A stretch of DNA of 39,675 nt, taken from positions 1 through 39,675 of the forward strand of contig JAUNOP010000023.1 of the NCBI GenBank assembly GCA_030537135.1, written 5' to 3'. The notes under the pieces are model-generated. The model did no database searches. It had not been told where the DNA came from and was given only the letters and a program-made list of their open reading frames with translations. This DNA comes from Eubacteriales bacterium (GTDB lineage Bacteria > Bacillota > Clostridia > Lachnospirales > Lachnospiraceae). The position numbers and the translations under genes are program-made. Shown here piece by piece: positions 10,461-13,105 of the stretch; positions within the stretch are counted from its first letter, which is position 1, and each line of letters begins with the position of its first letter.

Positions 10461-10507
10461 GCATACATGCTGCTGAAATGCTTTTAGAAAAAGGAAAGGA
10501 GAGTCTT

Positions 10508-11371
10508 GTGGAGCAATTAAAAAAAATAAAATTAAAAAATATACTCATGCTGACGCTGACAGGTATTATCAATGCGACAGGTGTTACGCTGTTCTTGTCG
10601 CCGGTAAAGCTGTATGACAGCGGAATATCAGGAACAGCCATGCTTTTGGGACAGATAACGCCTATACCGCTTTCTGTGTTTTTGCTTTTGCTGAATGTGC
10701 CGCTGTTCTTATATGGACTCAAGAAGCAGGGAACGCTTTTTACCTGTTACGCTATCTATGTGGTTGCCGTCTACTCGATAGTTGCCGGGCTGATCACAGA
10801 TGTTTTGCCGATAGATGTCAGCACTGCCTCTCCTCTTGCAGGTAAGGATCTGCTGCTCTGCGCTCTGTTCGGCGGTATGATTTCCGGTATTGGAAGCGGT
10901 CTGGCCATTCGCTTTGGGGGAGCAGTGGACGGCATTGAGGTTATGGCAGTGATTTTTGCCAAGCGTCTGGGAATTACAGTGGGAACTTTTGTCATGATAT
11001 ATAATGTTGCGCTTTACATTATCTGCGGGATAGTGATGCAGAGCTGGATTCTGCCGCTGTATTCGATTGTTACATATGCGGCTGCACTGAAAACACTGGA
11101 CTTTATTGTGGATGGTCTTGACAGAGCAAAATGCGCAATAATTGTCACAGTCTGTCCGGATGAAATCTGTACAGCGCTTTCACAGGCCTTTGAAAGCGGT
11201 ATGACAAAGCTCAGTGCAACAGGCGGCTATTCTAATATGGAAAAGACAATGATATATTTTGTAGTCAACCGTTTTCAGGTTACAAGAATGAAGGATATGG
11301 TACATGAGATAGATCCGACAGCCTACATCACAATCAGTGAGGTTGCAGACGTATTCCCGGCAAACAAGTAA
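10508..11371 (+). CDS. YitT family membrane protein (DUF2179 C-terminus)
   Basis: A 287-residue protein with five to six hydrophobic segments (about 12-190), including the family-typical stretch with GGMISGIGSGLAIRFGGAVDG, then a soluble C-terminal domain (about 205-285) of the DUF2179 type (ATGGYSNMEKTMIYFVV). YitT proteins are common in Firmicutes; some are proposed transporters but the substrate is unsettled. I start at GTG 10508 because AAGGAG lies six bases upstream; an in-frame ATG at 10478 has no ribosome site. The gene stands alone, bounded by inverted copies of a dispersed repeat at 10395 and 11440. No promoter is obvious beyond a TTGAC at the end of the upstream repeat. Confidence 0.88.
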   Translation: MEQLKKIKLKNILMLTLTGIINATGVTLFLSPVKLYDSGISGTAMLLGQITPIPLSVFLLLLNVPLFLYGLKKQGTLFTCYAIYVVAVYSIVAGLITDVLPIDVSTASPLAGKDLLLCALFGGMISGIGSGLAIRFGGAVDGIEVMAVIFAKRLGITVGTFVMIYNVALYIICGIVMQSWILPLYSIVTYAAALKTLDFIVDGLDRAKCAIIVTVCPDEICTALSQAFESGMTKLSATGGYSNMEKTMIYFVVNRFQVTRMKDMVHEIDPTAYITISEVADVFPANK

Positions 11372-11439
11372 GTTTTCTGCAAAGGGCAGATCGGGGATTG
11401 AACAATAACATTTACAAAGGATTTACGGCAAAAGAAGTC

Positions 11440-11493: not shown

Positions 11494-11522
11494 TTGACAA
11501 ACCAAAGAAAACGAGTTAAAAT
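11494..11522 (+). promoter_or_regulatory. Sigma-A promoter of the MATE transcript
   Basis: TTGACA (11494-11499), exactly 17 bp, TAAAAT (11517-11522). The predicted start near 11529 falls at the base of the first terminator stem, so the RNA would begin with that hairpin. Confidence 0.8.
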
Positions 11523-11526
11523 AAGT

Positions 11527-11579
11527 ATAACGAGTGGCGATATGCGTAAATCCAGTTTTCGCCACTCGTTATTTTTTTT
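11527..11579 (+). terminator. Leader terminator 1 (attenuator) of the MATE gene
   Basis: ATAACGAGTGGCG (11527-11539) pairs perfectly with CGCCACTCGTTAT (11560-11572), followed by a T tract to 11579. The 20-nt loop contains GCGTAAATCCAG (11544-11555). Lying directly at the start point of the MATE promoter, it should end most transcripts after about 50 nt unless it is overridden. Confidence 0.85.
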
Positions 11580-11616
11580 GAAACAAAATAAAAAACAAGA
11601 AAAGTGTGTGGCCTGA
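11542..11616 (+). CDS. Possible 24-codon leader peptide
   Basis: ATG at 11542, inside the loop of terminator 1, opens a 24-residue frame (MRKSSFRHSLFF, then a Lys/Gln-rich end, KCVA) that stops at 11614-11616, just inside the left arm region of terminator 2. A ribosome on it would cover the right arm of terminator 1 and then the left arm of terminator 2, which is the geometry of ribosome-mediated antitermination known from antibiotic-resistance genes. The ribosome site is weak and only about 13 nt of RNA precede the ATG, so translation is uncertain. Confidence 0.35.
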   Translation: MRKSSFRHSLFFLKQNKKQEKCVA

Positions 11617-11656
11617 GCAGGCGTAAATCCAGCTCTATTGTGCCTCACACTTTTTT
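11600..11656 (+). terminator. Leader terminator 2 directly before the MATE ribosome site
   Basis: AAAAGTGTGTGGC (11600-11612) pairs with GCCTCACACTTTT (11642-11654) with one mismatch, followed by T residues to 11656. The loop again holds GCGTAAATCCAG (11621-11632), the same 12 bases as in terminator 1. AAGGAGG starts seven bases later, so the structure could affect both termination and translation start. Confidence 0.75.
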
Positions 11657-11674
11657 GTGTGTAAGGAGGAAGCT

Positions 11675-13105
11675 ATGGAACAAAAATCAAACACTTTTTT
11701 GGAAACAGAAAAAATAGGAACCCTTATGCGGAAATATTCGATTCCCTGCATTATTTCTCTGCTGGTTGCCGCGCTCTACAATATCGTAGACCAGATTTTT
11801 ATTGCCAATGCAGATTATCTGGGCTCCTATGGAAATGCAGCCAATACGGTTGTATTTCCTCTGACAGTGGTGGCGCTTGCGATTGCCGTTATGATTGGAG
11901 ACGGGTGCTGTGCTTTTGTCAGCATCAGTCTGGGGGCAAACCGCAAAAAGGACGCCCATCAAAGTATTGGGAATGCCATTGAGCTGTGTATAGTCAGCAG
12001 CATCATACTTACGGCCGTTTACCTGCTTGCAATGGAGCCGATTTTGACATTTTTCGGTGGAAAGGTGAATGCAGACACGTTTGCAAATGCAAAGGAATAT
12101 TTCTTTTGGATTGCCCTTGGCGTGCCGTTTTATATGTTCGGGCAGGCAATGAACCCTATTATCCGTTCAGATGGAAGCCCCAAATTTGCAATGGTCTCCA
12201 CAGTAGCTGGCGCAGTTGCTAATATTATCTTTGACCCGATTTTGATTTATCCCCTGCACATGGGAATGAAGGGGGCTGCTGTTGCGACGGTTGCCGGACA
12301 GGTGCTGACAGCGGGCTTGTCTGTCTGGTATCTTTTTCACATGAAGGCGATAAAGCTGGAAAAAAGCAGTTTTTCCCTGCAAGGAAGCTTACTTCGCCGC
12401 TTTTTGACCCTTGGCGTCACAAGCTTTCTTGCGCAGGCTTCTCTTGTGGTGTCTATGGCAGCGGTTCAGAATATGTGTACCAAATACGGTGCGCTTGATC
12501 CGGTGTTTGGTCAGATAGAATATGCGCAGATCCCTCTGGCAGTGCTTGGAATTGTTATGAAGTTTTTCCAGATTGCCATTTCGGTCGCAGTGGGCATGGC
12601 AGCTGGATGCATCCCGATTGTCGGGTACAATATCGGCGCGAAACGAAAGGATCGTGCAAAGCAATTATTTACTTATCTGCTCACAGGGGAGGCAGCAGTC
12701 GGTCTGATTGCATTACTTATTGTAGAGGTATTTCCGAGACAGCTTATCGGCATTTTCGGGGCAGCCAATGAGAGCGCTTATTATACTACATTTGCAGTAA
12801 AAAGCTTCCGCATCTATCTGTGCATGATGGTGCTGGCAACTGTAAATAAGGGAACTTTTATTTATCTGCAGGCATTGGGAAAAGCTGTACAGTCTACTTT
12901 GATTTCCCTGACAAGGGAAATTATTCTGGGAGTGGCTCTGCCGATAATTCTTCCGATTTTCTTTGGGCTGGACGGACTTTTATATTCTTTCCCGGCAGCA
13001 GACATCCTCACATTTATCGTGGCTGTCATTATTATCAGAAAAACCTATGCAGAACTGAAGGAAGACAAAAAGCAAGTGTTTGTTACAAAGGAGGCAGGCT
13101 TATGA
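11675..13105 (+). CDS. MATE family efflux transporter
   Basis: A 476-residue polytopic protein with about 12 membrane segments and the two-fold MATE pattern. The N-half has ALYNIVDQIFIA, GDGCCAFVSISLGA and NPIIRSDGSPKFAM; the C-half has GMAAGCIPIVGYNIGAKRKDRAK. MATE proteins export cationic drugs or metabolites by Na+ or H+ antiport in the cytoplasmic membrane. I start at ATG 11675, five bases after AAGGAGG, rather than the frame opening at 11657, which lies before the ribosome site. Expression appears to be gated by two leader terminators. The stop overlaps the next gene by four bases (ATGA). Substrate unknown. Confidence 0.93.
   Translation: MEQKSNTFLETEKIGTLMRKYSIPCIISLLVAALYNIVDQIFIANADYLGSYGNAANTVVFPLTVVALAIAVMIGDGCCAFVSISLGANRKKDAHQSIGNAIELCIVSSIILTAVYLLAMEPILTFFGGKVNADTFANAKEYFFWIALGVPFYMFGQAMNPIIRSDGSPKFAMVSTVAGAVANIIFDPILIYPLHMGMKGAAVATVAGQVLTAGLSVWYLFHMKAIKLEKSSFSLQGSLLRRFLTLGVTSFLAQASLVVSMAAVQNMCTKYGALDPVFGQIEYAQIPLAVLGIVMKFFQIAISVAVGMAAGCIPIVGYNIGAKRKDRAKQLFTYLLTGEAAVGLIALLIVEVFPRQLIGIFGAANESAYYTTFAVKSFRIYLCMMVLATVNKGTFIYLQALGKAVQSTLISLTREIILGVALPIILPIFFGLDGLLYSFPAADILTFIVAVIIIRKTYAELKEDKKQVFVTKEAGL

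Follow-up and report, generated by a model that had tools for sequence, protein, structure and literature searches.

The leader of the MATE-family efflux gene in the window (the whole stretch of DNA analyzed, 39,675 nucleotides) is probably a tandem, terminator-overlapping candidate ON riboswitch, as judged from comparisons of sequence. Its core is a hairpin of ~30 nt with a conserved internal loop (consensus ANYGNGURGC-(4-9 nt)-GCGUAARUCCRGYU), which occurs twice in the window and is apparently a small, widespread and undescribed RNA sensor. A hairpin that is conserved and covaries, excludes a terminator, lies at the predicted 5' end, is often doubled and precedes unrelated genes presents the anatomy of a terminator-platform riboswitch; a conserved, covarying, aptamer-like fold excluding a terminator was found in the 5' leader, though two of the five covariation measures did not exceed those of shuffled alignments. 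From this anatomy we infer the binding of a small molecule, activation of the gene upon binding and working terminators.

Architecture of the MATE leader

All of the features described here are encoded on the plus strand. A sigma-70-type promoter, TTGACA-N17-TAAAAT (11494-11522), matches 11 of 12 consensus positions and shows the same promoter-to-hairpin spacing in relatives. Its expected start point (~11529) is the first base, or foot, of the first conserved hairpin, in agreement with an earlier sequence-only reading of this DNA that had proposed a promoter with its start at hairpin 1. This first copy (11529-11557), a candidate aptamer and antiterminator supported by covariation, comprises the pairs 11529-11557, 11530-11556, 11531-11555, 11532-11553, 11534-11552, 11535-11550, 11537-11545, 11538-11544 and 11539-11543, and its 3' strand, GCGTAAATCCAG, occupies conserved alignment columns (11544-11555). 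The second copy (11603-11634) comprises the pairs 11603-11634, 11604-11633, 11605-11632, 11606-11630, 11608-11629, 11609-11627, 11611-11622, 11612-11621 and 11613-11620, with exactly the same word as its 3' strand (11621-11632). The covariance model R1 matches the two copies with 37.8 and 39.6 bits, respectively, both copies being members of the training set of that model.

Each copy overlaps a terminator-like hairpin, to which it would lose its 5' strand, a layout termed type A. The first of these (11528-11579) has arms at 11528-11540 and 11559-11571, followed by T8 at 11572-11579, and the 5' strand of copy 1 lies within its 5' arm; the second (11600-11656) has arms at 11600-11612 and 11642-11654 with a T-run at 11651-11656. 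The earlier claims of two terminator-like hairpins in series ahead of the MATE gene and of one word common to both are confirmed at these coordinates. The word had been described as a shared loop and is indeed conserved, but it is not a simple loop; it forms one side of a hairpin whose folding competes with that of the terminator. The ribosome-binding site AAGGAGG (11663-11669) precedes the presumed regulated gene, which encodes a MATE-family efflux transporter of 476 aa (11675-13105); among solved relatives, BH2163 is the nearest to it by sequence. A gene for a cytidylate-kinase-like protein (PF13189; 13102-13710) overlaps the MATE stop codon and is probably co-transcribed with it.

The fold of the 197-nt leader is better by 3.9 SD than those of its shuffled counterparts, none of which (0/200) folded as well. 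A consensus terminator scan listed neither of the two window hairpins, which is no argument against them, as the scan was limited to loops of 3-8 nt. That the pair is beyond chance follows from the same word preceding homologous genes of other species within the same kind of hairpin. By nearest-neighbor energies, the conserved hairpin alone is unstable (+6.0 kcal/mol for copy 1 and +1.9 kcal/mol for copy 2) and would thus need a partner or strong non-canonical contacts, while the best folds of the same two stretches are the terminators, at -22.8 and -23.0 kcal/mol. The default state should therefore be OFF, and the ON state would need the hairpin to be held.

The sequence-only reading had further proposed ribosome-mediated attenuation, in which translation of a 24-codon leader peptide would open both hairpins in turn. 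The frame is real, running from the ATG at 11542 to the TGA at 11614-11616 and spanning both hairpins, and drug-resistance leaders governed by leader-peptide attenuation are known in general. Its suggested role is not supported, however, as the frame is not conserved among relatives and single-copy leaders exist: an ATG anywhere inside the hairpin is present in 37 of 168 first or single copies, and an open frame of at least 10 codons in only 18 of them. In the window, the predicted transcript carries ~13 nt with no Shine-Dalgarno word ahead of the ATG. Neither the covarying, conserved hairpin nor the existence of type B leaders would be explained by this mechanism, which is very improbable. 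An upstream complement of the word, GGATTTACG, does exist at 11419-11427 as reported, but it lies 5' of the promoter and is not conserved, an exact complement of a copy's own word at -200 to -30 having been found for one of 168 copies, namely that of the window; it was rejected as a part of the switch.

Conservation and covariation of the hairpin

Conservation had been set out in the sequence-only reading as a check, and both the word and the kind of hairpin recur in the leaders of relatives, with covariation. The word GCGTAAATCCAG was found in 75 instances from 57 sources (a count that includes the window and L002), usually preceded in relatives by G[ACT]G[TC][AG]GC. Alignment A1 contains 71 rows, of which 70 are distinct, and the pattern used for the selection of rows left columns 2-5, 13, 20 and 32-35 free; most core positions were specified by this pattern and are invariant by construction. 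Column pair 4/33 is GC in 35 rows, AU in 18, GU in 9, UA in 5 and CG in 3, and is unpaired in none of 70, while 5/32 is CG in 39, UG in 22 and UA in 8, with a single row unpaired. Pair 9/27 appears as UA (51), CG (8) and UG (8) with three rows unpaired, where the pattern allowed only T/C and A/G/T, respectively. Pair 3/34 has six mismatches, 2/35 fails in 34 of 70 rows and, within the inner stem 11-13/20-22, the outermost pair 13/20 fails in 21 of 69. Pairs 6/30, 8/29 and 12/21 never vary and are thus neither supported nor contradicted by covariation.

Taken over the whole of A1, 90.7% of cells are paired compared to 81.6% in shuffles (0/500 reach the observed value), and the best slid register attains 47.9%. 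The percentage paired, the number of double-change cells and the covariation score each lie above all 500 shuffles. The two remaining measures do not: double-change pairs were as high in 440 of 500 shuffles and further pair types in 94 of 500, with 481 and 90 of 500 in a separate shuffle run. The covariation counted in A1 is accounted for by nested pairs, and RNAalifold on this alignment returned the inner three pairs only. A larger set, collected by a sequence-only pattern, contains 182 distinct cores, 180 of them with a downstream T-run; many of these loci were fetched with R1, so the set is less independent than A1 and leans towards the model. Within the 180 cores, 4/33 is paired in 179 against 91.4 expected, with mutual information of 1.33 bits, and 9/27 in 172 against 156.9 expected. 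Where both columns 9 and 27 were left free, every C9 with a T-run met G27 (23/23).

Competition with the terminator and tandem arrangement

Of the 182 cores, 97 have a predicted terminator that captures the 5' strand of the conserved hairpin, 50 one that captures the 3' strand and 23 one that captures both; another relationship is seen in 7 and none in 5. The layout in which the 3' strand is captured sets GGCGUAAGUCC against GGACUUACGCC, as in L033 and, with A in place of G, in L071. Strand overlap amounts to 170 of 182 in all; when the 60 nt downstream were shuffled once, 75 of 182 still showed it. The coexistence of two opposite layouts with the same hairpin suggests that the hairpin, rather than the terminator, is what has been conserved. 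Terminators are common in leaders, and the pair in the window could on that account be ordinary duplicated terminators, without regulation, retained by common descent of the MATE leader. Such an account would have to accommodate compensatory changes on a hairpin that is not the terminator, the two terminator layouts and the unrelated downstream genes, and it is scarcely credible.

Promoters scoring at least 9/12 stand ahead of 133 of the 168 first or single copies, and in 120 of the 168 the -10 box ends 6-9 nt before column 3, a position from which the RNA probably starts at the hairpin. As a control, 18 of 462 positions scored at least 9/12 in the region 150-250 nt further upstream, with duplicates still included. 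Second copies have such promoters in only 2 of 27 cases, so that tandem copies seem to reside on one transcript. The 27 tandem pairs are spaced 54-163 nt apart and resemble tandem homologous riboswitches in their anatomy only.

The leader is envisaged as two serial copies of a single transcription-attenuating RNA switch. Each copy would fold its ~30-nt hairpin while leaving RNA polymerase, with an outer stem of 3/34, 4/33 and 5/32 followed by G6-C30, G8-C29 and Y9-R27, and then an asymmetric internal loop (R10 opposite GUAA) and an inner stem of 11/22, 12/21 and 13/20. A ligand, most likely a small molecule, would hold this hairpin so that the shared strand is occupied, no terminator forms and the polymerase reads on; without ligand, the far more stable terminator would win and transcription would stop. 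As the polymerase has to pass both copies, the tandem arrangement should keep leakage low and steepen the response. The product under control would be the MATE pump, whose presumed substrate is the signal compound itself or something accompanying it. Ions such as Na+ are possible as ligands as well, and are counted here under the riboswitch reading.

The predicted sign of the switch follows from the strand shared between hairpin and terminator, as a stabilized hairpin should prevent termination. A family of related alternatives holds that the same switch has the opposite sign, that it senses temperature or polymerase speed, or that the hairpin merely slows folding of the terminator. The sign is indeed read from anatomy, and the calculated energies make the terminator the default, but with a shared strand a stabilized hairpin should weaken termination, and these alternatives are improbable.

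Distribution and associated genes

The MATE loci surveyed were the best 80 of 406 relatives by protein homology, a selection blind to the leader, and derive mostly from gut and rumen Clostridia. With one mismatch allowed per strand, the motif is present in 61 of the 80, and twice in 25 of these. Among the 80, 31 carry one copy, 25 carry two, 5 combine a single copy with a second motif, 8 carry the second motif only and 11 carry neither; by this loosened pattern, 19 lack the motif, including L083, for which almost no upstream sequence is available. Mapped onto a tree of 81 MATE proteins, the types of leader require 22 changes compared to 41.5 in shuffles, and are thus clustered, yet have changed many times. 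The second-motif labels on this tree come from a narrower pattern (13 loci), where a wider one gives 18. A pattern scan for the second motif remained at chance level, the backward control matching at least as often.

The full hairpin was found by exact-word search of 98 genomes in one genome besides that of the window; one further genome matched, with no terminator seen by eye around the match. A plain pattern matched at 21 places, spread over 18 of 243 genomes and including three in the window's genome, against 2 for its backward control. Using R1, the motif was found in 72 of 200 genomes of the window's family, sampled at one per genus (E<=0.001), in 53 of 293 genomes of the class (E<=0.01) and in 15 of 398 genomes of the phylum (E<=0.001), 10 of the latter outside the class. 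The window's own genome has three matches with E<1e-6, namely the two copies in the window and one on contig 6, which lies ahead of a 79-aa frame with no Pfam match and a C_GCAxxG_C_C protein; a match at E 0.92 in this genome was left out.

The downstream genes were counted from 145 model matches in 129 loci, at one site each, with 16 further matches in counted loci, the window's duplicate loci L085 and L086, and L087 (E 0.92) dropped. Genes were predicted by script and named by Pfam from one or two members, with BLAST clustering for the rest. The first gene encodes a MATE protein in 79 of the 129 sampled loci, these falling into two groups with 40-81% and 24-30% identity to the window protein. 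Other first genes encode CarD-like proteins (6), MFS transporters (6), the 79-aa frame (5), a DUF2798-like family (5, with matches only below the Pfam cut-off), copper-amine-oxidase-N domain proteins (3) and cytidylate-kinase-like proteins (3, matched to the window's protein by eye, with two at a distance of ~500 nt). An ABC exporter, an HxlR protein, a flavin oxidoreductase, a BMC-domain protein and, as assigned by eye, a UvrA-like protein occur once each, and the remaining loci include 15 with unassigned or doubtful frames and 2 with no gene. No shared pathway was recognized among the downstream genes. Recurrence before MATE, MFS, ABC, CarD-like and HxlR genes is as would be expected of a portable cis-acting sensor.

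The main rival to the riboswitch reading is a trans-acting factor: the same hairpin could be held by a protein, or by a small RNA pairing with the GUAARUCC strand, with the signal sensed elsewhere. Antiterminator proteins of the LicT/SacY or PyrR kind serve as models, and small hairpins are of the size that such proteins bind. The conserved strand, the fit in hairpin size, the nearly constant internal-loop sequence across many genes (which is in part a product of the search pattern) and the lack of a known ligand are each consistent with this possibility. On the other hand, the motif crosses the classes of the phylum and precedes unrelated genes, no regulator gene was noticed as a regular neighbor, and a pairing RNA would not need a covarying outer stem. 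A trans-acting factor is accordingly held to be unlikely, though with more in its favor than any other alternative.

The candidate ON riboswitch may also represent something broader, for which the likelihood is judged a little short of even: a new riboswitch class of ~30 nt without a pseudoknot that senses a toxic or signaling compound widespread in anaerobic gut communities and turns on MATE, MFS and ABC exporters together with stress regulators. If the riboswitch reading is right, over one third of the genera sampled from the window's family (72/200) would carry an orphan RNA sensor, most often before efflux pumps, and its ligand would reveal both the substrates of the pumps and a chemical signal important to such bacteria. 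The two interchangeable terminator layouts, along with a second, unrelated hairpin that alternates with the motif before the same pumps, would then amount to a two-sensor RNA control of efflux. The RNA is very small and well bounded (~50 nt with its terminator), and its putative aptamer and terminator share a strand; as natural versions use either strand, strand competition in riboswitches would become directly testable.

Relationship to known RNA families

The sequence-only reading could name no leader type with such a duplicated loop, and Rfam 15 gave no match in the window at the curated gathering score. In 12 relatives, including 6 that have the motif, no match fell on it either. Permissive Rfam searches returned only sub-threshold matches to unrelated families; among these, Atu_C9 covered both strands of a perfect terminator hairpin, scoring 24 bits where the cut-off is 40, and was taken as chance. 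The open-licence main texts searched describe no such motif before MATE genes, though it may be in print elsewhere; the excerpts of PMC8632094 and PMC2965389 likewise contain none, and the terms MATE, efflux, multidrug, Lachnospiraceae and tandem are absent from PMC11109978. The motif is set apart from the guanidine-IV, Gd4v and thiS RNAs by their published descriptions rather than by Rfam comparison.

Guanidine-IV (GGAM-1, or mepA motif; PMC7736828, PMC11611296, PMC12186494) and the HMP-PP (thiS) riboswitch (PMC6478431) would be the closest precedents by working principle, their aptamers lying inside terminators, and the likenesses and differences given below follow excerpts of the cited papers. 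A reading of the motif as guanidine-IV or Gd4v has this to commend it: guanidine-IV is an ON switch in which the aptamer extends into the terminator, Gd4v is thought to act likewise, and both precede MATE genes (PMC7736828, PMC9788692). Gd4v is moreover an orphan motif enriched in gut samples (PMC9788692). In both, however, two hairpins are joined by a pseudoknot, a loop-loop interaction in guanidine-IV, and tested constructs measured 81-105 nt, whereas here a single hairpin suffices, as in 31 of the 80 MATE loci. In 120 of 168 first or single copies, the 5' end predicted from the promoter coincides with the hairpin, leaving no room there for a first hairpin of the guanidine-IV type. By the description in PMC9788692, Gd4v also bears an extra hairpin on the terminator, which was not found here, and its main gene encodes a transaminase.

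The conserved loop letters differ as well. The second loop of guanidine-IV follows G-N3-GU-N4-G, as taken from the 95 Lla mutants G62, G66, U67 and G72 (PMC7736828), whereas both window copies have C six positions past the G of GU; in the larger sets this C was itself specified by the search pattern and is not independent. Guanidine-IV is found mostly before sugE, while R1 had no match (E<=1) in 22 PF00893 loci from 18 of 118 genomes, 16 of these loci being over the cut-off and 7 of those strong. No SMR gene was recognized among the first genes of the 129 sampled loci (15 unassigned), nor was a guanidine-IV example found among the SMR loci of the class, of which four strong ones have leaders that we take to be guanidine-I-like. 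Membership in guanidine-IV was rejected on hairpin number, loop letters and SMR association, and a guanidine-IV or Gd4v-type reading is regarded as quite improbable.

The HMP-PP (thiS) riboswitch shares with the present candidate a compact form, conserved nucleotides within an intrinsic terminator, mutual exclusion of the two structures and action as an ON switch, and it occurs in series with TPP riboswitches (PMC6478431). It differs in having two stems with a possible pseudoknot and in preceding only thiamin-precursor genes, in contrast to the single hairpin before efflux and other genes described here. No thiamin gene was recognized among the 129 first genes (15 unassigned, and several named from one cluster member), and with 79 of these encoding MATE proteins, membership was rejected. 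The HRC-8-4 motif (PMC8632094), likened here by description, is a terminator with a conserved tip that has been proposed as a simple terminator-embedded aptamer, but it was found with cytochrome c operons and hvrB. For the tandem arrangement, the nearest parallel is offered by the tandem homologous, or pseudo-cooperative, riboswitches, in which one gene is preceded by two complete switches that each possess a terminator and are expected to sharpen its response (PMC9481103).

Leader elements of MATE efflux genes

A second leader element, distinct from the first motif (the conserved hairpin overlapping a predicted terminator), takes the form ACGAUAC-(stem)-GAUACGA-N-AC and occurs, for example, in L005 (1874-1912). 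By pattern count, it is found in 18 of 80 MATE leaders, these being the best 80 of 406 protein relatives, with further carriers including L007, L010, L011, L013, L014, L027 and L052, among others. The complement UGUAUCGU lies no more than 60 nt downstream of the element in half of these leaders (9 of 18), and the order of a single first-motif copy followed by the second element is seen in five MATE leaders. An Rfam search of three second-element loci (L005, L013 and L082) returned nothing reaching the curated gathering cut-off. With both patterns combined, one or other motif is present in 74 of the 80 MATE leaders.

The related MATE leaders of L035 and L040 lack both motifs, and another terminator-like hairpin, around GAAGUUGGCAGACGAACUCCGUUGGAAGACAACUCC, occurs immediately 5' of the MATE start in each. 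A terminator-like hairpin is also found within approximately 100 nt upstream of the MATE start (1643) in L006; judged by eye, this hairpin (GUGCAGC...AGUCCAAC) resembles a degenerated first-motif copy, and a clear match to that motif's covariance model (39.8 bits) lies at another place in this locus, at 787-819.

Genomic surroundings of the first motif

Besides the two window copies, the covariance model locates one more strong first-motif copy in the genome that the window comes from, making three in all; it is on contig 6 at 11869-11901 (L084:1501-1533). Downstream of it lie a 79-aa frame, to which a Pfam search assigned no family, and a redox-like protein bearing C_GCAxxG_C_C. Related frames of the 79-aa type occur 3' of the motif in four more sampled loci, and by eye such a frame sits between two first-motif copies in L058 and L066.

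A Clostridiales-1 RNA (RF01699; 89.5 bits), truncated by the locus end, was matched by Rfam on the minus strand of a relative's locus (L009:1-141). Within the window, a YitT/DUF2179 membrane protein gene (10478-11371) lies directly 5' of the MATE leader, its end 303 nt from the MATE start codon.
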